Positions 42,313 through 58,587 of a DNA stretch of 64,000 nt are shown here, in pieces; the first letter of the stretch is position 1, and each line of letters starts with the position of its first letter. The position numbers and the translations under genes are program-made. The notes beneath the pieces are model-generated. The model saw nothing but the letters and a program-made list of their open reading frames with translations, made no database searches and had not been told where the DNA came from. The stretch comes from Neoroseomonas soli (GTDB lineage Bacteria > Pseudomonadota > Alphaproteobacteria > Acetobacterales > Acetobacteraceae), in NCBI RefSeq assembly GCF_018129065.1, contig NZ_JAAEDM010000015.1:1-64000 (forward strand), given 5' to 3'.

Positions 42313-43455
42313 ATGGACTGGACACTGACCGACGGCACCGTCCTCAAGGACGGGGCCTTGGCGAAGGATGCACTCGCGCTGGCGGGCGGACTGGTGACGG
42401 AGGCGCCCGCGCCCGGCGCGGCGCGGTTCGATGCCTCCGGACTGCTGGTGCTCCCCGGCCTCGTCGACATCCATGGCGACGCGCATGAACGGCAGTTGCA
42501 ACCGCGGCCGGGCGTTGACCTGCCGGTTCCGCTCGCGCTGCGCGATTCGGCGGCGCAGCTCATCGCCTGCGGCATCACCACGGCCTATCTCGGCGTGACG
42601 CTGTCCTGGGAGCCGGGGCTGCGCTCGCTGGGCGCCTGGCGCGCGCTGAAGGCGGCGCTGCCCACCGCGCGCGCGCACGCGGCGACGGACCTCCGCGTGC
42701 ACCTGCGCTTCGAGGCCGACAATCTCGATGCGCTCGAGGAGGCGCTCGAGGGCATCGCGGATGGCAGCGTTCACCTGCTCGGCTTCAACGACCACACGCC
42801 GGCGATCGTGAAGAAGCTCGGCGACCCCGTGCAGGTCGCGAAGTATGCCGGCCGCGCCGGGGTGAAGGCGGAAGCCTATCGCGCGCTTGCCGACTCGGTC
42901 ATCGCGCGGCGCTACGAGGTCCCGGCCGCGCGCGCGCGCCTTTCCGCCGCGGCGCAGGCGGCGGGCATCCCGATGCTCAGCCACGACGATGCGACGCTCG
43001 ATGACCGCGCGCATTACCGCGCGCATGGCGCAACCATCTGCGAGTTCCCGATGGCCGAGGAGGTCGCCGCCGATGCGCGCGCGGCCGGCGAGCATGTCGT
43101 GATGGGCGCGCCGAACGTGGTGCGCGGCGGCAGCCATCTCGGCTGGGCCTCGGCCGCGCCACTCGCCGAGCGTGGCCTCGTGACGGTGCTTGCCTCCGAC
43201 TACGTCTGGCCGGCGATGCTGGAAGCCGCCTTCGCCATGGTCCGGCGGGGCGTGCTGGACCTGCCGCGGGCCTGGGCGCTGGTGTCGGCGAATCCGGCCG
43301 AGGCCTGCGGCCTGGCGGATCGCGGGCGGCTGGCGCCTGGCCTGCGCGGGGATGTGGTGGTCGTGGATCCGGCGACGGCGGCGCCGGTCGCGGTCTTCGC
43401 CGGCGGCGGCCTGGCCTGGCTGGCGCCTGGAGCGGCGGTTCGGCTGCGGCGCTGA
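42313..43455 (+). CDS. PhnM-like diphosphatase (second paralog)
   Basis: 380 aa amidohydrolase of the PhnM family. The metal motif reads DIHGDAHERQLQPRP where the other paralog has DVHTDNLERQVQPR. It keeps LLGFNDHTP, MLSHDDAT and ASDYVWPAM. The overall match to the 35898 protein is only moderate, so its substrate may differ. It lies 4 bp downstream of phnF, a likely bicistronic unit. Confidence 0.82.
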   Translation: MDWTLTDGTVLKDGALAKDALALAGGLVTEAPAPGAARFDASGLLVLPGLVDIHGDAHERQLQPRPGVDLPVPLALRDSAAQLIACGITTAYLGVTLSWEPGLRSLGAWRALKAALPTARAHAATDLRVHLRFEADNLDALEEALEGIADGSVHLLGFNDHTPAIVKKLGDPVQVAKYAGRAGVKAEAYRALADSVIARRYEVPAARARLSAAAQAAGIPMLSHDDATLDDRAHYRAHGATICEFPMAEEVAADARAAGEHVVMGAPNVVRGGSHLGWASAAPLAERGLVTVLASDYVWPAMLEAAFAMVRRGVLDLPRAWALVSANPAEACGLADRGRLAPGLRGDVVVVDPATAAPVAVFAGGGLAWLAPGAAVRLRR

Positions 43456-43468
43456 GCGCCGGAACGCG

Positions 43469-43505
43469 CGTCGGGGGCGGCGCATCGCTGCGACCGCCCC
43501 CGGCG
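43469..43505. terminator. Strong GC hairpin after the second phnM
   Basis: CGTCGGGGGCGG (43469-43480) pairs with CCGCCCCCGGCG (43494-43505); one pair is G-U. A 13-nt loop separates them. It is placed between the stop of the phnM paralog and the tRNA-like remnant at 43532, so it may also have ended the tRNA transcript coming from the other side. Confidence 0.6.
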
Positions 43506-43531
43506 TGATCTCCCGATCGGAAGGATGGGCT

Positions 43532-43547
43532 TGGCTCCCCGAGTAGG
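43532..43547 (-). other. tRNA-Asn 3'-end remnant, candidate attL of the element
   Basis: Read on the minus strand this is CCTACTCGGGGAGCCA: the 3' half of a T-stem, a seven-base acceptor strand, discriminator G and CCA. It matches the 3' end expected for an alphaproteobacterial tRNA-Asn (acceptor start TCCCCGA). The match stops abruptly after 16 bp, and no tRNA body continues. It lies 177 bp before an integrase gene, as expected when an element inserts in a tRNA gene's 3' end. The intact tRNA should then be at the far right end. Confidence 0.6.
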
Positions 43548-43633
43548 CGCGCAGCGGGCGTCCCGATGGTTCCCATAATGTGCCAACGCATCCCTGAAAT
43601 CCCTTGAATTCCGCGGCATAGGCGGCCAACTGG

Positions 43634-43698
43634 CGGCCCCATCCATCCCAAGCCATCCCGCCGCATCCCGGCGCGGCCAATGGGGCCGGATGGGGCCG
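43634..43698. repeat. 11-bp inverted repeat and CATCCC direct repeats upstream of the integrase
   Basis: CGGCCCCATCC (43634-43644) and GGATGGGGCCG (43688-43698) are perfect inverted copies. Between them are several CATCCC units and a further TGGGGCC copy. The block ends about 25 bp before the integrase start. It could be integrase or excisionase arm-type sites, or an operator for integrase expression. Confidence 0.45.
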
Positions 43699-43723
43699 CT
43701 CAGGAAGGAAAGCCCCGCCCGAA

Positions 43724-44995
43724 ATGCTCACTGAAGTCCAGATCAAGGCCGCGCGACCCGGCCGCTACTCCGATGGCCGCGGCGACGGCCTCATGCTGTT
43801 CGTCAGTCCCACCGGCGCGAAGAAGTGGGTGCAGCGCATCAAGGTCGGCGCGCGCTACCGCGAGATCGGACACGGCGGTCACCCCGAGGTCGGCTTGGCC
43901 GAAGCCCGGCGGCGCGCCGCGGAGGCGAAGTTGCAGGTCGCCGCCGGCGTGGACCCGATTGAAGCGCGGCGTCAGGTGCAGGCCGTCAAGGCCGCGCCGC
44001 TGGGCCGGACACTGAAGGATGCGGTCGAGGGCTACATCGCCGCGCATGGCCCGGCATGGCGAAGCCCGAAGACGGCGACCCTGTTTCGCAGGAGCCTTGA
44101 GGATCATGCGGCAGGGCTGCTGGCGCGCGATCCCGCCGGCATCACCCTCGATGATGTGCATTCGGTCCTGGCGCCGATCTGGTCCTCGAAGCCGGTCCTC
44201 GCGCAGAAGGTCCGAAGCAGGCTTGAGCACTCTCTCGAATGGTCCATGGCGGCGGGTTGGCGTCCGCATGGGCTGAACCCCGCCGCGTGGCGGGGGGCGA
44301 TCCGGACGCTGCTCGCCAAGCCCGGAAAGGTGACGCGGAACAGGCACCATCCGGCGCTGCCCTGGTCGCGCATCCCGGAATTCATCGCGGCGCTCCGGGA
44401 TGAGGTTGGCAACGCCGCGCGATGCCTCGAATGGGTGGTGTTGACGGCCAGCAGGAGCGGCGAAGCGCGCGGTGCGACTTGGTCCGAGATCGACCTTGAT
44501 TCGGCGATATGGGCGATACCGGCGGCGCGCATGAAGGCGGGCCGGGCGCACCGTGTTCCGCTATCCGCGCCGGCCGTCGCCCTGCTTCGCGCCATGCTGC
44601 CAAAGGGCGGCGTGAAGCCGGCGCAGGGCCTGATCTTCCCGAACAGCCGGACGGGCGCGGAATTCTCGGATGCGGCGCTGCTGGCGCTGCTGACCCGGAT
44701 GGATGCCGGCTCGACCAAGGCGGGCGGCGTCGGCTGGCGGGATGAAGCCGGCCAGAAGGCGACGCCCCATGGGATGCGGTCGGCCTTCCGAGATTGGTGT
44801 GGCGATGCCGGCCATCCGCGGGAGATCGCGGAAGCCGCGCTGGCTCATGCCATGGGAAGCGCGACCGAGCGGGCTTATGCGCGGTCCGACCTGTTCGAGC
44901 GGCGGCGCGTGCTGATGGATGCCTGGGCGATCACCTGCGATGGCGCGGCGCAGCCCGGTGGCAATGTCGTCCAGATCGCGCGGGGCGCGGCGTGA
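43724..44995 (+). CDS. Tyrosine recombinase/integrase
   Basis: 423 aa phage-type integrase. An N-terminal Arm-binding (DUF4102-like) domain (about 1-85) is followed by a SAM-like core-binding domain and the catalytic domain. The active residues can be assigned: R244 (TASRSGEARG), H349 and R352 (TPHGMRSAFRDW), H375 (LAHAMG) and the nucleophile Y385 (RAYARSDL). It should insert the element at a tRNA 3' end. Its stop overlaps the start of the next gene. Confidence 0.95.
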   Translation: MLTEVQIKAARPGRYSDGRGDGLMLFVSPTGAKKWVQRIKVGARYREIGHGGHPEVGLAEARRRAAEAKLQVAAGVDPIEARRQVQAVKAAPLGRTLKDAVEGYIAAHGPAWRSPKTATLFRRSLEDHAAGLLARDPAGITLDDVHSVLAPIWSSKPVLAQKVRSRLEHSLEWSMAAGWRPHGLNPAAWRGAIRTLLAKPGKVTRNRHHPALPWSRIPEFIAALRDEVGNAARCLEWVVLTASRSGEARGATWSEIDLDSAIWAIPAARMKAGRAHRVPLSAPAVALLRAMLPKGGVKPAQGLIFPNSRTGAEFSDAALLALLTRMDAGSTKAGGVGWRDEAGQKATPHGMRSAFRDWCGDAGHPREIAEAALAHAMGSATERAYARSDLFERRRVLMDAWAITCDGAAQPGGNVVQIARGAA

Positions 44996-45618
44996 TGCTG
45001 ACCGCGTGGGACGCGATGTGGTCGCTTGCATCGGCCGAGGAAGCAGGGGAGTGGCGGGCGGCGGAGAATCTCGCGCCATCGGAGGATAATCCGGCGCCTT
45101 GTTGGATGGCACGGCAAGGTATCGAGGACTCCCTTCGGTTCCGGCTTCATGCCGCGCTGGCTGAGGGTGCGATGCTTGCGGAAGGCTGGCCGGATGATGG
45201 CGGCGACCGGCGGATGATCCCCCCGCCGGCATGGGCGGGCATGGGGCTTGATGTGGAAGCCGGCAGGGCCGAGGGCGGGGGGCGCGCTTGGGCTGGGTTG
45301 CGCTTCCGCCCGGCGGCGGCCCAGGCGGCGCTTATGGCGGCCCCGGCGGCGGCCCCGGCGGCGCCATCCCGGCCGGCCCGCGGAAGGCCGCGGCGGGGGG
45401 AGGACGATCTATCGCTAGCGGAAGGGCGGGCCGCCTACTTGGCGTGGTGCCGCCGCATCAAGCGCGACCCCCGCGACCCAGATGCGCGGTCGCCCTCGTG
45501 GCAGGAGGTATGGTCAAAATTCCGCGGGTTGATGAAGCGCGAGACGATCCGCGCCATCCATCAGCAGGCGTGGGGGCCGAAGGCATCCGAGAAGGGGCGG
45601 AAGGGCGGCCCGGCGTGA
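44995..45618 (+). CDS. Unknown protein with AT-hook-like motif
   Basis: 207 aa, not recognised. The N-terminal half is acidic and Trp-rich (WDAMWSLASAEEAGEW). The middle is an Ala/Pro-rich linker followed by RPARGRPRRGE, whose GRP core is typical of AT-hook DNA-binding motifs. The C-terminus is a basic helix (EVWSKFRGLMKRETIRAIHQQAW). It is coupled to the integrase and ends in the first iteron, so a role in recombination or regulation of the element is plausible. Confidence 0.7.
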   Translation: MLTAWDAMWSLASAEEAGEWRAAENLAPSEDNPAPCWMARQGIEDSLRFRLHAALAEGAMLAEGWPDDGGDRRMIPPPAWAGMGLDVEAGRAEGGGRAWAGLRFRPAAAQAALMAAPAAAPAAPSRPARGRPRRGEDDLSLAEGRAAYLAWCRRIKRDPRDPDARSPSWQEVWSKFRGLMKRETIRAIHQQAWGPKASEKGRKGGPA

Positions 45619-45723
45619 GTGTTCCCGGCGTGAGTATTCCCGCGCGGGCGGAATTTCGGGAACACTCAGAGCCGCGGAAATCTGCCGTTTTTGCCCCCTG
45701 AGTATTCCCGCTGAGTGTTCCTC
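45616..45723. repeat. Array of five 12-bp iterons, consensus TGAGTRTTCCCG
   Basis: Copies: 45616-45627 (TGAGTGTTCCCG), 45631-45642 (TGAGTATTCCCG), 45657-45668 (inverted, exact), 45699-45710 (TGAGTATTCCCG) and 45712-45723 (TGAGTGTTCCTC). The first copy overlaps the upstream stop codon. The stretch from 45670 to 45745 is AT-richer than its surroundings. Such an array is typical of an operator cluster or a replication/excision site. Confidence 0.85.
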
Positions 45724-45748
45724 GAAAGTTGTTTTCGGTACACTTACG

Positions 45749-46198
45749 ATGCCTAGAATGGGGGGCCTTGAAGCATCGAAGCGGAAGGGCATTCCCCCAA
45801 TGTCGAAGCAGGCGCCAAGCGCCACCACCAGCACGCCGGCGGGCGGCGCGATGCCGTCCGGCCTGCGAATACTCCGAGGCGAGGATGTTTACGGGAAAGA
45901 GGGGCGGACGGGCTGTAGTCGAAGCCAGTGGTATCGCCACATTGCGGAAGGTCGTGCGCCGCCTGGATTTATGATCTCGCCGCAGGCGCGCGGATGGCTG
46001 GAGCACGATATCGACGCATGGATCATCGCGCGCGTCGAGAAAGGTGGAATCGACAAGGCGCCGCCCGCCACGCCTGAACCTTATGCGTCCATGGTCGGGC
46101 ACAACGGCGGCCCGCCGATGAAGCGCCGTCGGGGAAGGCCGCGAAAGAACGCGACCCCGCCCGGCGTGTTCGGCGGCCCCGCGGAGGGCGGAGCATGA
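45749..46198 (+). CDS. AlpA-family regulator/excisionase with C-terminal AT-hook
   Basis: 149 aa (132 from ATG 45800). An AlpA/MerR-like winged helix (GRTGCSRSQWYRHIAEGRAP, then RGWLEHDIDAWI) is at about 50-95. The C-terminus carries MKRRRGRPRKN, a canonical AT-hook. It lies directly downstream of the five iterons, which are its most likely binding sites. AlpA proteins control integrase expression or act as excisionases. It is coupled to the next gene. Confidence 0.8.
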   Translation: MPRMGGLEASKRKGIPPMSKQAPSATTSTPAGGAMPSGLRILRGEDVYGKEGRTGCSRSQWYRHIAEGRAPPGFMISPQARGWLEHDIDAWIIARVEKGGIDKAPPATPEPYASMVGHNGGPPMKRRRGRPRKNATPPGVFGGPAEGGA

Positions 46199-46515
46199 GC
46201 GCTGCCCGGGTTTCCAGGCGTCCTGTTATCGTCGTGGCTTACGATGCGCGCGACGCCTTTGCCGAAGTAATCTACTTCATCGCGATCCGGCGCCGCGGCC
46301 AACAGCTGCCGCTCGTTGAGATCGGAGACGAGGGGCCTATCGAACCTATTGATCTATTGCGCAGGATGCGGGGCTGCGGCGACATCCTTCCGGGCAGCGT
46401 CGGCGATGCCGTTCATGGCATCCTCGAGGACATCTATCGCGGCGAACCGCCGCGATACAGGAACACGTATGCGGCTGCGGCTCGGCGGCTGATCGAGGCG
46501 GAGGCGCTCGTATGA
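46195..46515 (+). CDS. Hypothetical protein in the element's early operon
   Basis: 106 aa of unknown function. It begins with a short beta-strand-like VIVVAYDARDAFAEVIYFIAIRRRG and continues with mixed helices. No cysteine clusters or membrane segments. Start and stop both overlap neighbours by 4 bp, supporting a real coding unit. Confidence 0.6.
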   Translation: MSAARVSRRPVIVVAYDARDAFAEVIYFIAIRRRGQQLPLVEIGDEGPIEPIDLLRRMRGCGDILPGSVGDAVHGILEDIYRGEPPRYRNTYAAAARRLIEAEALV

Positions 46516-47123
46516 GCGACGCCCCGAAGGCCGCACGCACCATTTGCCTGAACGTCACTAGTGGGACCATCCCGCTGATGGCTTCCGCGTTGCACGTCGC
46601 CGAGGATGATGATGTGGCCGAGCAACGCTGCGTCGCTGTCCACGAGGCTGGGCACGTAGTCGCCGCTCTGGTTTTGGGGATCTCATTTCGGAGCGTCAGC
46701 ATCGTGCCTTGCGCTGATCATGCCGGCATAGTCCGCATGGGAAAGCCTCCCGAATGCCTGGGCGGCGCTGACATGCCAAGCCGCTGGGTGATGGCCCGCG
46801 GCATCGTTTCGATGGCAGGGCCGGCTGCTGAAAAACTATTCTCCGAGCGTGAGCGCTGGCGCACTGATCGGGACCGTTGGGGTGCCGATGAACGAAACGC
46901 TGCTGACTTCGCCGACCGGGCGGCGTGCGGCCATAGGGACACCATGGATGCGTTCGTCGCGCTGTGGCGCGCGCAGTCCTCCGCCCTGGTGGAACGAGAG
47001 GGTTACGCTATCGACGCCGTAGCGCATGCGTTAGCCGAACGCGGCCGGATGAGTGCCGCCGAAGCCCGTCAGGTATGGCATGCCGCTACTTCTGCGCGGA
47101 TTGATGCGGCGAGACGGCCATGA
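46512..47123 (+). CDS. M41-like (FtsH protease domain) metalloprotease protein
   Basis: 203 aa. HEAGH at residues 44-48 with the surrounding VAVHEAGHVVAALVLG matches the peptidase-M41 zinc site; a MARGIVSMAGPAAEKLF helix follows as in FtsH. The AAA ATPase domain and membrane anchor are missing, so it is a stand-alone protease-like domain that may act on host or phage proteins, or only bind. Coupled to the gene before it. Confidence 0.72.
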   Translation: MSDAPKAARTICLNVTSGTIPLMASALHVAEDDDVAEQRCVAVHEAGHVVAALVLGISFRSVSIVPCADHAGIVRMGKPPECLGGADMPSRWVMARGIVSMAGPAAEKLFSERERWRTDRDRWGADERNAADFADRAACGHRDTMDAFVALWRAQSSALVEREGYAIDAVAHALAERGRMSAAEARQVWHAATSARIDAARRP

Positions 47124-47206
47124 ACGCCGCCGTCGATCGGCTGGCGTTTGCGTGCGCGCGATGCCTCGACACAGCGGAAGTCCGCGACCGGGACCGCGGC
47201 GCGTGA
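47120..47206 (+). CDS. Very small ORF with in-frame continuation after TGA
   Basis: 28 codons from an ATG overlapping the previous stop, ending in TGA at 47204-47206. The same frame then stays open for another 26 codons (EAVIDALSGHGSAVDALSQID...) to 47292, with similar composition. It may be a single 56-aa product broken by a point mutation. Low certainty. Confidence 0.35.
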   Translation: MNAAVDRLAFACARCLDTAEVRDRDRGA

Positions 47207-47626
47207 GAGGCGGTCATCGACGCCTTGTCCGGCCATGGCAGCGCGGTCGATGCGCTCTCGCAGATCGATGCGGCGAGGGCGCGCACGCGATGATCGAAAT
47301 GGCGAAAAAGACTGGCTTGCGCGGCCATAGCGGCCACGCGCAAACTGAATACCGGAGAACCCCACAACGCAGATCCGCAAGCAAGCGGGCTGGCCGCCGC
47401 GTCGGAATGGTCCGGCCCGGTAGAAGCGAAGGGGTTTTCCGATGATCCGACAGCACCGCATCCTGCGCCGCGCCTCCGAGCGCGCAGCCACTTGATCCCG
47501 TCTTAACCCGCTGGTGCATCAGCAGGGGAAGAACAGGACCAAGCAAGCGCGATCTTTTCCGGGGATCGCCGCGAGCATAATCCATCCTCTGCCCGAGGCG
47601 CCAGCCGTCCATGAAGGACGCGCGCC
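47207..47626 (+). other. Poorly defined stretch with short or broken ORFs
   Basis: No convincing long gene. A 51-aa frame starts at 47290 (MIEMAKKTGLRG..., to 47445). In another frame a protein-like stretch (NTGEPHNADPQASGL, WSGPVEAKGF) runs from about 47315 to 47510 without a start codon. The region looks like decayed coding sequence in front of the large primase-like gene. Confidence 0.4.
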
Positions 47627-49516
47627 GTGTTCATCGACCTGCAGCAAGGCGTTCCGGCCTATCGCTTGCCATGGAACGCATCGCCTTTCAGTTCCGCCCG
47701 GTCTGGCGGAGGCATCGTCACCGCCATTCGCGCGACCACCCCGGACGTGGTGCAGAAGGTCTTCGCCGTCGATGCGGACGGGCGCGCGACCAAGAAGGCC
47801 GCGGCCACGATCCGGGCCGGCGTCTGTCACCCGATCGAGGTCGCTGATCTGCGCGACATTGGCGAGTTGCTGTCGGAACTGTCAGAGAAGCCCGACCACT
47901 GCCTCATGCTCGACGCCTTCCTCTATGCGCCGGCCTTCGGCACCTTCGATCTGGTCAATCGCTACACCCTACGCCGGATGCTGCCGCGCCTCGGCCCGGA
48001 TGCGCCGCATGGGGTCCATCAAGGGCCGTTCGGCCCGGTTGCCGCCCGCCTCGCCGCTGGCATCGACCATAGCGGGTTTGTCCTGCTCGATGCCGACAAC
48101 TGGCCCGGTATGCCGAGCGAATGGGCGGCGATGACGATGGCCGAGCGCGTGCAATTCCTCGCCGCGGTGGTGCCTGGTCTCGACGCCTGCGAGCGGGTGG
48201 AAGCGCGATCATCCTCTGCCCGCGCCGTCGCGCCCGGCGGCCGGCCCGGCCCGGCCTCGCATGGCTATATCCGCGTCTCGCATCCCGCGCTGGTCGATGC
48301 GCTCCGGCGCCACATCATCCGCGCCACGAAGGCGCGCGGGCTGGCCGCGCCGATGGCGCGCATCGCGCGCGACGGGTCCGGCCGCATGGTCGGCCGGGAA
48401 TGGCGCACCGTGATCGACCTCGCCGTGATGCACCGCGGGCGGCTGATCTTCACCGCCCCGCCATGCGTTGATGGCGCTCCCGGCTGGACCATCGCCGATG
48501 CAGGCGTGCGGCTGGTCAATGAGGGCGGCGGCGACCTCGATCTTGGGTGGCTCGATCAAGAGCGCCCGGCGGTGGCTGGCTGGCGAGGCGATGCCAGCGC
48601 CGCCGAGCCCGCGCCGATGGAATGGGCTGACGCCGCGCCGCCGCATGAAAGCCCCGAGCGTAGCCCGACCCGGCCGAAGGGCGTCGCCGTGCCGCGGACG
48701 CTCCCGGACCCGGCAAGCGCCATGGTCGGCACGCGCAACATGACGATGTTCAACTACGCCCGGTTCAAAGCCTACGCCTGGGCGGATGCGAACGGCACGC
48801 CCAAGGTTCCGTTCGGCCTGGTCCTGTCGTGGTGCCGCGAGGCCATCGCCGGGATGCTGTGCGACACCGCCGAGACGGAGCAGCAGGCCGTCGCCACGGC
48901 GCGGAGCATCACGGACTGGATGCCGTTGAACTATGAGCCGGGCGTCGGCATCCGAAGCGCACCCAAGACCGAGGCGGAAAAGCGCGCCGCGCGAGTTGCG
49001 GGCCGCGCGCAAGGGGCCGCGACGCAGCGGAACAGGACCGACGCAGACGTGGAGGGCGCGATCAAGCGGCTGAACGTGTGGGGCGAGCGCGTGACGGCCG
49101 CGAGCGTGGCAAGGCTGGCGAAGGTGTCGATCAGGACGGCAGCGGGGCGGCTTGCGAAGGCCAGGGCGGCGGCAACGGACCATGCAAACATAGCGCGCCA
49201 TCATATGAATAGCGTGGGCGCGCTTGTCGCCGCCGATGCGCCGCTTCCGGTGCCGCCTTCCGCCGCTCCTGCGCCTGCCCCACTGCGGAAATCTATCGTT
49301 CCTGCCTTCCCCGGAAAAACGCGGCCGAATTGCGCGCCGCGCGCAACGGTGGATCGCGCTGTCGATGCATCGGCGGGGCTTTCGCCCTCCTGGCATGGGG
49401 AGCGGCGCGCCAGCCCGCCACGATGGCCGCCGCCCGATCCGATGGCGGCGGGCCTGCATCGCGGCTGGCATGAGCACCGGGCGCGGCTTCGAGCCGGCGC
49501 GAGGGCGTCGCCATGA
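47627..49516 (+). CDS. Primase-like replication protein of the element
   Basis: 629 aa, GTG start. The N-terminal 300 residues resemble the archaeo-eukaryotic primase group found in alphaproteobacterial phages. They have a YRLPWNASPF start, an acidic FVLLDADNW strand, and the GREWRTVIDLAV...RLIFTAPP segment that occurs in such primases. The middle (about 360-430) is a conserved unknown region, and about 475-520 forms a helix-turn-helix (GERVTAASVARLAKVSIRTAAG). The tail is Pro/Arg-rich. No helicase domain is seen. The assignment is moderate. Confidence 0.55.
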   Translation: MFIDLQQGVPAYRLPWNASPFSSARSGGGIVTAIRATTPDVVQKVFAVDADGRATKKAAATIRAGVCHPIEVADLRDIGELLSELSEKPDHCLMLDAFLYAPAFGTFDLVNRYTLRRMLPRLGPDAPHGVHQGPFGPVAARLAAGIDHSGFVLLDADNWPGMPSEWAAMTMAERVQFLAAVVPGLDACERVEARSSSARAVAPGGRPGPASHGYIRVSHPALVDALRRHIIRATKARGLAAPMARIARDGSGRMVGREWRTVIDLAVMHRGRLIFTAPPCVDGAPGWTIADAGVRLVNEGGGDLDLGWLDQERPAVAGWRGDASAAEPAPMEWADAAPPHESPERSPTRPKGVAVPRTLPDPASAMVGTRNMTMFNYARFKAYAWADANGTPKVPFGLVLSWCREAIAGMLCDTAETEQQAVATARSITDWMPLNYEPGVGIRSAPKTEAEKRAARVAGRAQGAATQRNRTDADVEGAIKRLNVWGERVTAASVARLAKVSIRTAAGRLAKARAAATDHANIARHHMNSVGALVAADAPLPVPPSAAPAPAPLRKSIVPAFPGKTRPNCAPRATVDRAVDASAGLSPSWHGERRASPPRWPPPDPMAAGLHRGWHEHRARLRAGARASP

Positions 49517-49623
49517 GCCGGGAGCAGCGCCGGGCCGTCCGTCAGGCGCTCGCCGATCTGCCGGGCGTCCGCATCGAGGGCGACCGGATCATCACCACCA
49601 CCGAAGGGAGCGCCACGCCATGA
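49513..49623 (+). CDS. Short coupled peptide, unknown
   Basis: 36 aa (MSREQRRAVRQALADLPGVRIEGDR start). Both ends share 4 bp with neighbours (ATGA on each side), a strong sign of translation. It contains one basic helix and a beta-turn region. Function unknown. Confidence 0.5.
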   Translation: MSREQRRAVRQALADLPGVRIEGDRIITTTEGSATP

Positions 49624-50066
49624 GCAAAACACGATTCACATACCACCAGATGTGCGACGCCATCCGCGATGTCTACGAACGCGACGAGATCGCCGCCATC
49701 GCAAAGACCGATCCAATCCGCGCCATTAAGCTCTACTGCGAACAGGCCGCCACTACGGCCCCAGAGGCGATGGCCGTCCGCATCCGCCTTCGCGCCGAGA
49801 AGCGCATCGACTCCCTGATGCGCAAGATGCGAAGCCGCAAGCAGCCGTCGCCCGCGAAGCAGGACGCGCCGCCGCCTATGCCAGCCAATCCCGGCGTATC
49901 CGCGCAGGAGGCAGCCGACTTCATTGCCATGGCCGCCCTGCCGAATGAGCAATTCGAGCAGATGATCGCCCAACCCGGCGCGACCACTGAAGCCGTCGCG
50001 GCGGCTGGTCGAGCGCATCTTTCAGCGACCGCCGGCGCATCGCCGGGCAGCGGAACGAAGCCATGA
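49620..50066 (+). CDS. Hypothetical helical protein of phage-element type
   Basis: 148 aa. The N-terminal 80 residues are helical (KTDPIRAIKLYCEQAATTAPEA, RIRLRAEKRIDSLMRKM), a pattern seen in small phage proteins beside replication or methylase genes. A low-complexity Pro/Ala linker and a short helical tail follow. Not a known domain. Coupled on both sides. Confidence 0.6.
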   Translation: MSKTRFTYHQMCDAIRDVYERDEIAAIAKTDPIRAIKLYCEQAATTAPEAMAVRIRLRAEKRIDSLMRKMRSRKQPSPAKQDAPPPMPANPGVSAQEAADFIAMAALPNEQFEQMIAQPGATTEAVAAAGRAHLSATAGASPGSGTKP

Positions 50067-50308
50067 CCGACGCGACGCGCCTTGGCCTGTTCGGGCTGCC
50101 GCTCGATGATGCGCCGGCGGGTGCGGACGCAGACCTTGTGCTCGACGTGTTTGGCGAGCCGGCAGACCCATCGGCAGCCTTCGCGTGTCCGAAGGCGAGG
50201 CGCAAGGCTTTCGAGCAATGGGTCGCTGGTGGGCGCGATTTCGACCGTCTTCCGGTCGGCCTTCTCGGCGCGATATGCGGCGCGGCGCTCGGGAGCCGGA
50301 AGCAATGA
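50063..50308 (+). CDS. Hypothetical small acidic protein
   Basis: 81 aa. An acidic N-terminus (LPLDDAPAGADADLVLDVFG) is followed by a helix with KARRKAFEQWVAGG. It is coupled to neighbours by 4-bp overlaps at both ends. No known family. Confidence 0.55.
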   Translation: MTDATRLGLFGLPLDDAPAGADADLVLDVFGEPADPSAAFACPKARRKAFEQWVAGGRDFDRLPVGLLGAICGAALGSRKQ

Positions 50309-50745
50309 GCCGCGTCGCCGAGATCGTCTCGCGCCTCGCCCGCTATCCCCGCCCCGGCCATCCAAAAGCCGCCCAGCGGCATTCCCGCGCAGCATGGTCG
50401 GGTTCGCCGCATATGCACGGACTGCATGACCTGATCCGCGCGAGATTTGACCTACGCCAACGCGATGGCGCCGCAGCTGGTGCTACACGGTCGCCGCGGA
50501 TCGCCCCCGGCGCCCTGGCACTTCGCCTGCGTCGCGAGGGCGGGAGGGAAGCGGCCGGAAGCCGCCGCCCTGGCCCTGACGACCGCAACCGGCGCTTGGA
50601 GGCCCCGACACGATGGCTGAGACAACCACACCCCTGCCCGAGGTCGGCGCCAAGCCCGCCGCGACCGCGACGAGGGCCGCGACGTCAATGCGAAAGGAGG
50701 ACAACGTTGGTCTTGCGGCGGAATTTGCCGTCGCCGCCTATCTGA
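50305..50745 (+). CDS. Basic hypothetical protein, possibly frameshifted
   Basis: 146 aa in this frame. The N-terminal 55 residues look real (MSRVAEIVSRLARYP, HMHGLHDLIRARF), but the C-terminal part overlaps the next gene by 133 bp and is Arg/Pro-rich, like out-of-frame translation. A different frame ending at 50620 (through APWHFACVARAGGKRP) overlaps the next start by only 8 bp. A frameshift around 50430-50465 would join the two. Confidence 0.35.
   Translation: MSRVAEIVSRLARYPRPGHPKAAQRHSRAAWSGSPHMHGLHDLIRARFDLRQRDGAAAGATRSPRIAPGALALRLRREGGREAAGSRRPGPDDRNRRLEAPTRWLRQPHPCPRSAPSPPRPRRGPRRQCERRTTLVLRRNLPSPPI
50465..50620 (+). CDS. Possible short ORF or shifted C-terminus before the nuclease gene
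   Basis: 51 aa starting MAPQLVLHGRRGSPPAPWHF. Its TGA lies within the first codons of the PD-(D/E)XK gene (8-bp overlap), a usual coupling geometry. It may be a separate gene or the true end of the 50305 gene. Confidence 0.35.
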   Translation: MAPQLVLHGRRGSPPAPWHFACVARAGGKRPEAAALALTTATGAWRPRHDG

Positions 50746-51188
50746 CCAACGCCGGCTGGTTCGCCGCGATGATGCCATCGTCCACCTTCCCCGGTATCGA
50801 CATCATGGCGCGCAAGGCCGGCTACGAACCTGTCTCCGTTCAGGTGAAGGCGTCGCGGAAGCGCGGGCAGTTTTTCGTGATCGACAGCAGCGCGACACGG
50901 GTCAATGGGGCGGTGCCAGACGTGCCGGCACAGATCTACGTTTTCGGCGCGAACGAAGCCCCCGGCTTCAACAGCGCATGGTCCTTCTCGGTGATGACGC
51001 GGGAGGAGGTTCGCGCATGCATGAAGTGTGATGCTGGCGGCTCCTATGTGCCGGCGGCTGCGGTTCGCGATCCTGCGAATGTCGATGCGTGGTCGAAGAT
51101 GGCGTTGGCCGCGAGGCCCATCGCGGAGACGCGGGCATGCCCCATGCCGTCCCCATCTCCACGAGGATTGGAAGGAACATCGACATGA
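50613..51188 (+). CDS. PD-(D/E)XK nuclease-like protein
   Basis: 191 aa. GLAAEFAVAAYLTNAGW supplies the first acidic residue (E37), TFPGIDIMAR the second (D63), and VSVQVKASRKRG the Q-x-K end (Q77, K79): the restriction-endonuclease-like core. The group includes restriction, Holliday-junction and repair nucleases; which of these cannot be told. It has a GGAGGC leader that recurs at 59271. Its stop overlaps the following gene. Confidence 0.75.
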   Translation: MAETTTPLPEVGAKPAATATRAATSMRKEDNVGLAAEFAVAAYLTNAGWFAAMMPSSTFPGIDIMARKAGYEPVSVQVKASRKRGQFFVIDSSATRVNGAVPDVPAQIYVFGANEAPGFNSAWSFSVMTREEVRACMKCDAGGSYVPAAAVRDPANVDAWSKMALAARPIAETRACPMPSPSPRGLEGTST

Positions 51189-57145: not shown

Positions 57146-57456
57146 GCCAGGATATCGAGCAGTTGGTGATCGCCACGGGAATGCTGGTCCGCGAGACGAA
57201 GCAGCAATTGCGCGGCGAGAGCGAGGCGCTTCTGCAAGCGGTCGGCGCGCTGGCACGCGAGGAACGCAAGCGCGTTGATCGTGCAATCTCCGGGGTCGCG
57301 GCCGTTGTCGCGGCTGGCACGGCGAACGCCGCCGCGCTGGTCGCCCCGGCCGCCACCGCCGCGGAGGCCCGCCGCGATGTTCTTCTCCGGCGCAGGACGG
57401 ACACCATGGCGACACTCCTGCACTGGCTGGAACGGTGCGTCGATGATGACGGCTGA
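57142..57456 (+). CDS. Hypothetical helical protein, coupled operon gene 3
   Basis: 104 aa. A long amphipathic helix at 5-50 (VIATGMLVRETKQQLRGESE), a hydrophobic Ala/Val stretch (ISGVAAVVAAGTANAAALVAP, about 49-69) and a basic helix. The stretch could be membrane-associated. It overlaps the next gene by 14 bp. Confidence 0.55.
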   Translation: MSQDIEQLVIATGMLVRETKQQLRGESEALLQAVGALAREERKRVDRAISGVAAVVAAGTANAAALVAPAATAAEARRDVLLRRRTDTMATLLHWLERCVDDDG

Positions 57457-57892
57457 TCCCGCCGACCTCGCCGGCCTTGCGCCCATCCCGCCCGGCGATT
57501 GCGAACGGTGGTCGCCCGCGGCGCTGGCCGAGGCGGCCTTCATCGCCGAAGCCCTGGGCCTGGACCTCGATGCCGTGGTCGGCGCCACCACGGTTCCGGC
57601 CGGCGGCCTGGACTCCCTGACGCTGCACACGATCGGCGCATTGATCGGGCTGCATCGCGCCCTGGTCGTGGTCCTGGGCGCCGAGCAGGGGCGCGAGTGG
57701 CTTCATCGGCGGAATTCCGGGATCGCCTTCGGGGGAGACGCGCCGGCTGCGATCATGCAGCGGGACGGCCGGCGCGGATTGCTGGCGACGCGCGCTGTCC
57801 TCGATGCGATGCGGGGCGGCACCTTCCCGGCGATGGAAGTGGGCGAGCCTACGCCGGTTCGGCTGGCGCCGGTTCGGCTGGTGATCGCATGA
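57443..57892 (+). CDS. MbcA/ParS/Xre-type antitoxin-like protein
   Basis: 149 aa. The C-terminal half looks like the MbcA/ParS/Xre (DUF2384) toxin-binding domain: GALIGLHRALVVVLGAEQG, EWLHRRNSGIAFGGDAPAAIM, TRAVLDAMRGG. In known systems such a protein pairs with a RES-type toxin. Here the downstream partner (57889) does not show the RES signature. The assignment is by pattern only. Confidence 0.55.
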   Translation: MMTADPADLAGLAPIPPGDCERWSPAALAEAAFIAEALGLDLDAVVGATTVPAGGLDSLTLHTIGALIGLHRALVVVLGAEQGREWLHRRNSGIAFGGDAPAAIMQRDGRRGLLATRAVLDAMRGGTFPAMEVGEPTPVRLAPVRLVIA

Positions 57893-58587
57893 GCGCCGTC
57901 GCCGCCAGCGCCGTCGATCTCGCCCTCCCTCTCGCGGCGCCGGTGGTACGTTCCATCACCCACCCGCTGGTGGACTGGTCGGGCGTGGCCTACCGATTGG
58001 TCGCGGTGCCGGCCGTCGCGAGCCGGGCCAGATCGGTGCCGCAGGCGATCGTGGCTCTGGCCGCCATGTCCTCGCCCCGCGCGCGCCTCGGCCTGACGGA
58101 AACGCCACACGGCCATGCGCGGATTGTCGAGGCCGCCATGGCCGCCGTCGCCTTCATCCCCGGCCTGCCCTGGGTGGCCGATGGCGTCGCGGCCTGGATT
58201 GCCTTTGCCAATCCGGGGGACGCCCTGGCCGCGACCGCCGCCGGGCTTCATGCGCAGGTTCTCGCCGCCGGCATGGCCGAGATTCGGGGCCTATGGCGCG
58301 TGCAGCCGGCCGATGTGCGAGGCCGCTTCCTCGATGCCAGGGAGGCGCGCGACCGTCCGGCCTTGCTCGCCGGCCCCGAGGCCGCGCCCCTATCGCGCCG
58401 GATGGGAGGCCGCATTGCGGCCGCCGGCCGGCTCGATGGCGTCCTGGCGGCTGACGGCCGGATCGTGGTCTTTCGCGCCGCCGCGGTCAGGGTTCACCCG
58501 CTCGGCGCGGCCTACGACCTGGTGGTCGCTCGCGGCGGCGAGGCGACGGCGCGGCGGATAATCATGGGCAAGGAGAGCGAGACATGA
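57889..58587 (+). CDS. Hypothetical protein, partner of the ParS-like protein
   Basis: 232 aa, unknown. Central hydrophobic region (IVEAAMAAVAFIPGLPWVADGVAAWIAF) and a beta-rich C-terminus (RLDGVLAADGRIVVFRAAAVR). It takes the toxin position next to the ParS-like protein, coupled by 4 bp, but no toxin motif can be pointed to. Confidence 0.55.
   Translation: MSAVAASAVDLALPLAAPVVRSITHPLVDWSGVAYRLVAVPAVASRARSVPQAIVALAAMSSPRARLGLTETPHGHARIVEAAMAAVAFIPGLPWVADGVAAWIAFANPGDALAATAAGLHAQVLAAGMAEIRGLWRVQPADVRGRFLDAREARDRPALLAGPEAAPLSRRMGGRIAAAGRLDGVLAADGRIVVFRAAAVRVHPLGAAYDLVVARGGEATARRIIMGKESET

Follow-up and report, generated by a model that had tools for sequence, protein, structure and literature searches.

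What is the function of five strict sequence boxes, packed into 108 bp directly before an alpA gene, in a genome that has next to no other copies? The question bears on how satellite-like islands sense the moment for leaving the chromosome, a matter raised by earlier work, as the authors of the PICMI study ask how the helper activates the alpA regulon (PMC10803314), and the inducer had not been identified by the authors of the PICI study (PMC6092414). With somewhat better than even confidence, the array can be read as an operator for the alpA promoter of a satellite-like element integrated in the chromosome, where a protein that sets the time of the element's activation probably binds. Positions are those of the window, the whole stretch of 64,000 nucleotides that was analysed, unless given as contig positions, and the boxes and adjoining DNA are as follows.

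45616 to 45627, plus strand: box 1, TGAGTGTTCCCG, its start inside the stop codon of the 208-aa gene
45631 to 45642, plus strand: box 2, TGAGTATTCCCG
45657 to 45668, minus strand: box 3, TGAGTGTTCCCG, the exact inverted partner of box 1
45699 to 45710, plus strand: box 4, TGAGTATTCCCG
45712 to 45723, plus strand: box 5, TGAGTGTTCCTC, with the 10-mer core unbroken
45724 to 45799, plus strand: presumed alpA promoter and leader, 53% GC versus 69% GC for the element, the promoter being proposed by eye

These positions agree with an earlier note on this DNA, which had described four exact copies and one copy with two changes, in both orientations, within 108 bp. The 12-mer TGAGTRTTCCCG is found exactly at 45616+, 45631+, 45657- and 45699+, with the two-change copy at 45712+, and the 10-mer TGAGTRTTCC is the core common to all five boxes, in both orientations, between 45616 and 45723. 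Because box 1 begins in the TGA stop codon of the upstream gene (45616-45618), the array is not wholly intergenic. The starts of the plus-strand boxes are spaced 15, 68 and 13 bp, with one copy, box 3, inverted. From the end of box 5 to the start of alpA there are 25 bp if the gene starts at 45749, or 76 bp if it starts at 45800, the latter start being better placed for a ribosome-binding site, as judged by eye.

In the whole genome (5,241,929 bases, 216 contigs), TGAGTRTTCC occurs only six times, with five copies in the array and the sixth at position 3482 of contig 74, directly before a gene that by eye is LysR-like. The longer TGAGTRTTCCC has four genome copies, all in the array. When one mismatch is allowed on both strands, the element maximum is five copies of the 10-mer family within 110 bp, whereas the maximum in 30 dinucleotide-shuffled versions of the element was three (26/30) or four (4/30), and never five. 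The two-mismatch count across the 64-kb window, at 7 matches versus 5.9 expected, is not significant, and the significance of the boxes rests on their clustering and exact core, the loose count aside. No other 11-mer family (at least four copies, one mismatch, within 300 bp) was found in the element, except for a very G+C-rich one at 58474. An Rfam search over 43400-51000 gave no match above gathering scores, and the element has no site of the form GTTC-N7-GTTC, which is that of alphaproteobacterial LexA sites. The 11-mers TGAGTATTCCC and TGAGTGTTCCC were found in 7 and 4 papers, respectively, and judging by title no such paper deals with bacterial mobile elements.

The mobile element suggested by the earlier note is indeed present, and both of its ends can be mapped. 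It is integrated in tRNA-Asn(GTT), spans 43527-66046 (22,520 bp, or 22.5 kb) with a 21-bp direct repeat, and has its right end beyond the window.

43527 to 43547, plus strand: attL core, the 21-bp direct repeat GGGCTTGGCTCCCCGAGTAGG, a truncated 3' end of tRNA-Asn(GTT)
43634 to 43698: left-end copies of ATGGGGCCG at 43634-, 43680+ and 43690+, candidate integrase arm or excisionase sites (predicted function)
contig 65979+ and 65991+ (L139:1979-1999): right-end copies of ATGGGGCCG, likewise candidate integrase arm or excisionase sites (predicted function)
contig 66047 to 66067: attR core, the second copy of GGGCTTGGCTCCCCGAGTAGG, beyond the window

The ends were placed at these positions because of the GGGCTTGGCTCCCCGAGTAGG repeat at an intact tRNA-Asn gene and the order of the flanks in relatives. 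The attR copy overlaps the 3' end of the intact tRNA-Asn(GTT) gene at c66052-66127. In three relatives with the same left-flank DNA (of 34 matching genomes in the genus, the own not counted), tRNA-Asn lies about 300 bp on (G003), directly adjoining (G004), or about 4.5 kb off (G010). Five of the six copies of ATGGGGCCG on the 81.9-kb contig are no more than about 150 bp away from one of the two cores. Neighbouring copies are 10 and 12 bp apart, and these repeats would be better candidates than the array boxes for integrase arm or excisionase sites. The array itself lies 2.07 kb inside the attL core, and a contig scan with the box 12-mer (at most two mismatches) found no copy near either att end and none elsewhere in the element. 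Since no box lies near the att ends and a different motif, ATGGGGCCG, is found there, the boxes probably serve a role other than recombination, which argues against the earlier suggestion that the array is an excision site.

The genes around and behind the array are listed below.

43724 to 44995, plus strand: tyrosine integrase (int), 423 aa, with Arm-DNA-bind_3, Phage_int_M and Phage_integrase domains
44992 to 45618, plus strand: 208-aa protein of no known family, the positional counterpart of PICMI 'iolg'
45749 to 46198, plus strand: AlpA-family HTH protein of up to 149 aa (start at 45749 or 45800), with an AT-hook-like C-terminus
46195 to 46515, plus strand: 106-aa protein, weakly similar to the BRA0787 family (30 bits against a cut-off of 65)
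46512 to 47123, plus strand: 203-aa protein, weakly similar to M41/M50 metallopeptidases (21 bits, under both cut-offs)
47627 to 49516, plus strand: 629-aa protein of no known family, with no informative Pfam match

The int gene starts 176 bp after the attL core, placing the integrase at one end of the element. The 208-aa gene overlaps the int stop codon, either by 4 nucleotides in the arrangement GTGA, or by a single nucleotide if the ATG at 44995 is used (GTGATG). Its product has no match in Pfam, PHROGs or NCBIfam, and 397 genomes yielded five more weak matches (E 1e-4 to 7e-4), four of which are broken by stops. In the structure archive this protein matched a designed protein at E 1.4e-4, but the match was set aside because it falls in an Ala/Pro-rich part. 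The identification of the next gene as alpA holds, with PF05930 scoring 30.6 bits over a cut-off of 21. The AT-hook-like motifs that had been ascribed to both proteins flanking the array fared less evenly: an RGRP core is present in both, whereas the AT-hook profile stays below threshold on AlpA (13.8 bits versus a cut-off of 17.4, E 0.053) and has no match on the 208-aa protein. The 629-aa protein is suspected to be primase-like from motifs seen by eye, although no profile supports this guess, and among 299 genomes of the family it was matched only in its own. Searches for close relatives of AlpA and of the 629-aa and 208-aa proteins in viral contigs gave no match, nor did AlpA or the 629-aa protein match plasmids.

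To the earlier note this combination was unrecognised, yet it has published counterparts. PICMI satellites of the Vibrionaceae carry the genes int, iolg, alpA, up1 and prim in that order, with an overlap of 1, 4 or 13 nucleotides between the int stop and the next gene in 21 of 35 subfamilies (PMC10803314). The present element shares with them the integrase at one end, an alpA gene (PF05930 or PF12728), the gene between the two that overlaps the int stop, and further genes behind, and alpA is the switch in the PICMI system as described (PMC10803314). The differences are that the element is 22.5 kb long versus about 6 kb, is inserted in tRNA-Asn and not next to fis as in the prototype, has no known helper phage, and has no recognised DUF3987/DUF5906 primase among the element proteins scanned; moreover, the word 'iteron' is absent from the main text of the PICMI report (PMC10803314). 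Gram-negative PICIs such as EcCICFT073 also combine int with alpA, have the alpA promoter as a control point and show self-activation by AlpA, but in the account given of these islands two iteron sets lie 3' of pri-rep and flank an A+T-rich stretch, whereas the present array is 5' of alpA (PMC6092414). No PICI-type pri-rep was recognised here, and a regulator of the alpA or merR type is present. By the features tested, the element is neither a PICMI nor a PICI, although its front end has the layout of one.

Operators of small phage and island regulators offer a second comparison. The operators of 186 Apl and P2 Cox likewise consist of a short site repeated several times next to early regulatory genes, but the Apl sites, which are also found at att, are direct repeats of 6 bp at intervals of 10-11 bp (PMC7498355). 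The boxes of the present array are 10 bp long, lie 13-68 bp apart with one of them inverted, and are absent from att. RdfS of ICEMlSymR7A, a directionality factor of the HTH type, is autoregulatory and binds the promoter of its own gene. Its sites have no apparent consensus in the published description and include attP, unlike the strict box motif here, which is not at att (PMC11963761). For the excisionase-type proteins characterised so far, the bound sites are direct repeats spaced by about one helix turn (PMC7498355), and neither such spacing nor sites within the att region, both features of excisionase (RDF) arrays, were found for the boxes.

The reading of the array as an alpA operator comes from its placement where control of alpA should act, beside a stretch of 53% GC. 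A sequence-specific DNA-binding protein would occupy the five TGAGTRTTCC boxes upstream of the presumed promoter at 45724-45799, and occupancy of the boxes would set transcription of alpA and the genes behind it. AlpA would then drive excision together with the integrase, and probably also with the product of the overlapping gene. In support of the operator can be counted that five of six genome copies lie here, and that no other cluster of like quality was found in the element. The strict sequence of the five boxes, their spacing of 13-68 bp and the inversion of one of them are more suggestive of separate sites for a specific regulator. On the other side, a consensus scan of the region upstream of alpA found no sigma-70-like promoter, repeat arrays are not general before alpA-like genes, and the second alpA locus of the genome is without boxes.

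As to which protein might bind, the most plausible putative candidate is AlpA acting on its own promoter, favoured because AlpA activates its own promoter, and not the int promoter, in the known E. coli island EcCICFT073 (PMC6092414). Autoregulation by AlpA is disfavoured, however, by the observation that AlpA expressed from a plasmid left gene expression of the PICMI115 satellite unchanged (PMC10803314). In addition, binding by AlpA would break the spacing rule of the characterised excisionases, although, as a conjecture, an AlpA with an AT-hook-like tail might behave unlike its relatives. Because the box spacing departs from the one-helix-turn rule, another regulator is possible, such as the 208-aa protein, another protein of the element, or a regulator from a helper phage.

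Conservation of the repeats in related elements, whose absence the earlier note had named as one of two grounds against its own reading, was not found. The sequence TGAGTRTTCC occurs in none of 75 related loci, a set that does not hold all relatives and in which L086-L089 duplicate parts of L115-L118. A strict direct pair of boxes was found in the own genome only among 146 genomes (1/146), and with a direct pair one base longer the own genome was again the sole find in 385 genomes from the class (1/385), both counts including the own genome and the two sets overlapping. Since the boxes are absent from the 75 related loci, the array looks specific to this element.

With the five best candidates scored in each of 299 genomes of the family, the own included, an integrase match was present in 120, and loci were fetched for 30 matches; 430 plasmid records hold distant relatives of the integrase, all below 60% identity. 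The nearest integrase among these candidates, that of G210, is 55% identical. In this case the element starts with int, a gene that overlaps int by ATGA and a gene for an HTH_17 protein, with Toprim and D5_N/DUF5906 proteins further on. The overlapping gene of G210 encodes a product with weak similarity to the 208-aa protein (E 1e-5 in a single comparison, 26% over 58 aa), the HTH_17 protein gives no alignment with AlpA, and the element has no boxes. Thus, the boxes have not been kept with the integrase, as would be expected if they are paired with another protein.

Two aspects of the arrangement can be followed across further loci. A frame of at least 60 codons (70 to 372 codons) starts inside the int end in 11 of 42 loci, with four more starting at most 30 bp downstream of it; a frame of this kind does not prove a gene, and the 42 loci, own included, are those with a complete integrase and enough downstream DNA once six short ones and four duplicates are omitted. 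Upstream of alpA-like genes, significant short repeats (p < 0.05) were found in 7 of 46 regions, own included and with three duplicates and one short region omitted, versus about 2 expected, which amounts at most to a mild tendency for repeats before such genes. The second AlpA locus of the genome (L144) consists of int, another gene, AlpA and, by eye, an M41-type peptidase-like gene, with none of the boxes.

The array is apparently confined to this element, and it would be an example of a known arrangement in which repeats govern the switch gene of an integrated element. Taken alone, in one element and with no conserved copies, it is a modest finding. A strict array of five boxes right before alpA, with near-zero genome background, is also an unusually clean handle for the regulator.

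Several other functions can be proposed for the boxes. The array may consist of replication iterons, at which an initiator encoded by the element would bind and open the neighbouring A+T-richer stretch after excision, a role also proposed in the earlier note and here considered unlikely. Several exact short repeats in both orientations, beside a stretch of 53% GC in an element of 69% GC, are suggestive of such an origin, as are the absence of another such array found in the element and the folding of the DNA strand, which is better than that of 200/200 shuffles (z -3.5). However, the element proteins scanned, which are a subset of the ORFs, included no recognisable replication protein, and the genome gave no DUF5906 match. 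The nearby gene to be considered for a cognate initiator is that of the 629-aa protein, which belongs to no known family. Exact DnaA boxes are absent from the element, and its five one-mismatch DnaA boxes all lie outside 45300-46300. A DnaA box beside iterons is common but not universal. The 30-bp gap between boxes 3 and 4 is 63% GC by hand count, and the origins of PICIs are described 3' of pri-rep, not before alpA (PMC6092414). An origin is considered less likely because of the missing recognised Rep protein and exact DnaA box.

A somewhat more doubtful proposal is that boxes 1 and 3 form the two arms of a terminator at the end of the int operon, with the other copies being incidental. These two boxes are exact 12-bp inverted partners 29 bp apart, and they make up the main stem of the predicted RNA (z -2.36, with 4/200 shuffles folding equally well), which is followed by GTTTTTG. 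An inverted repeat is found at the same place in several relatives; G210 has a different inverted repeat between its overlapping gene and its HTH gene. Against this, a terminator scan found none here, and boxes 2, 4 and 5, which would play no part in the hairpin, carry the same sequence.

Control from outside the element has also to be considered, with the boxes bound by the lysogeny repressor of a helper phage that would hold alpA off until induction of the helper releases it. In EcCICFT073 and PICMI115, alpA is switched on by the helper (PMC6092414, PMC10803314). Of 28 viral stretches found with a direct box pair, 21 have the two TGAGTRTTCCC copies starting 24 bp apart (23 in one) and sharing flanks. 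One viral example with a family-typed neighbourhood has the pair between a CI-like gene (HTH_3 above cut-off, Peptidase_S24 and Phage_CI_repr below theirs) and a Cro-like gene (P22_Cro and YdaS above cut-offs). The settings listed for the viral loci inspected (seven of the 28, plus L010) include cI/cro-type regions, the inside of a gene that by eye is replication-like, and a gap between phage head genes. However, the viral stretches were retrieved by searching with this very sequence, and by rough reckoning a few families would be expected by chance. Because of this, a chance match to one operator family is unsurprising, and the proposal is given little weight, below that of the terminator. 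No phage with such an operator was found in the genome, where the copy on contig 74 is the only other 10-mer, and no inverted box pair was found in viral contigs. A narrower version, in which boxes copied from the helper would wire the element directly into the helper's lysogeny circuit, is for that reason rated slightly lower again; its basis is the coincidence that pairs of this 11-mer are carried by a family of phage cI/cro control regions.

The viral direct pairs were also considered as evidence of conservation and rejected, as the stored stretches encode no relative of int, AlpA or the 208-aa protein (E 1e-3). A search of phages with the array region gave no match, and plasmids gave three short matches at E 0.7. 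As a separate observation, three of the viral contigs (L054, L062 and L066) carry tandem 11-bp repeats of the GGGAACACTCA type, which in L054 and L066 lie inside a frame that by eye resembles a replication gene. The arrangement is reminiscent of an origin inside a gene, as in lambda O.

It is very improbable that the boxes are arm-type sites of the element's own integrase, which has the Arm-DNA-bind_3 domain of proteins that bind short repeats, given the 2.07 kb to the attL core, the absence of boxes from the right end, the ATGGGGCCG repeats that mark both ends, and the lack of any box in G210 with its 55% identical integrase.

Two further genes in the remainder of the element can be recognised. 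An Xre/MbcA/ParS antitoxin C-terminal domain at 57275-57892 (27.9 bits, cut-off 24.5) may belong to a toxin-antitoxin pair, and a gene for an SRAP (SOS-associated peptidase) protein lies near the right end of the element, at contig 64290-65030 (L139:290-1030).
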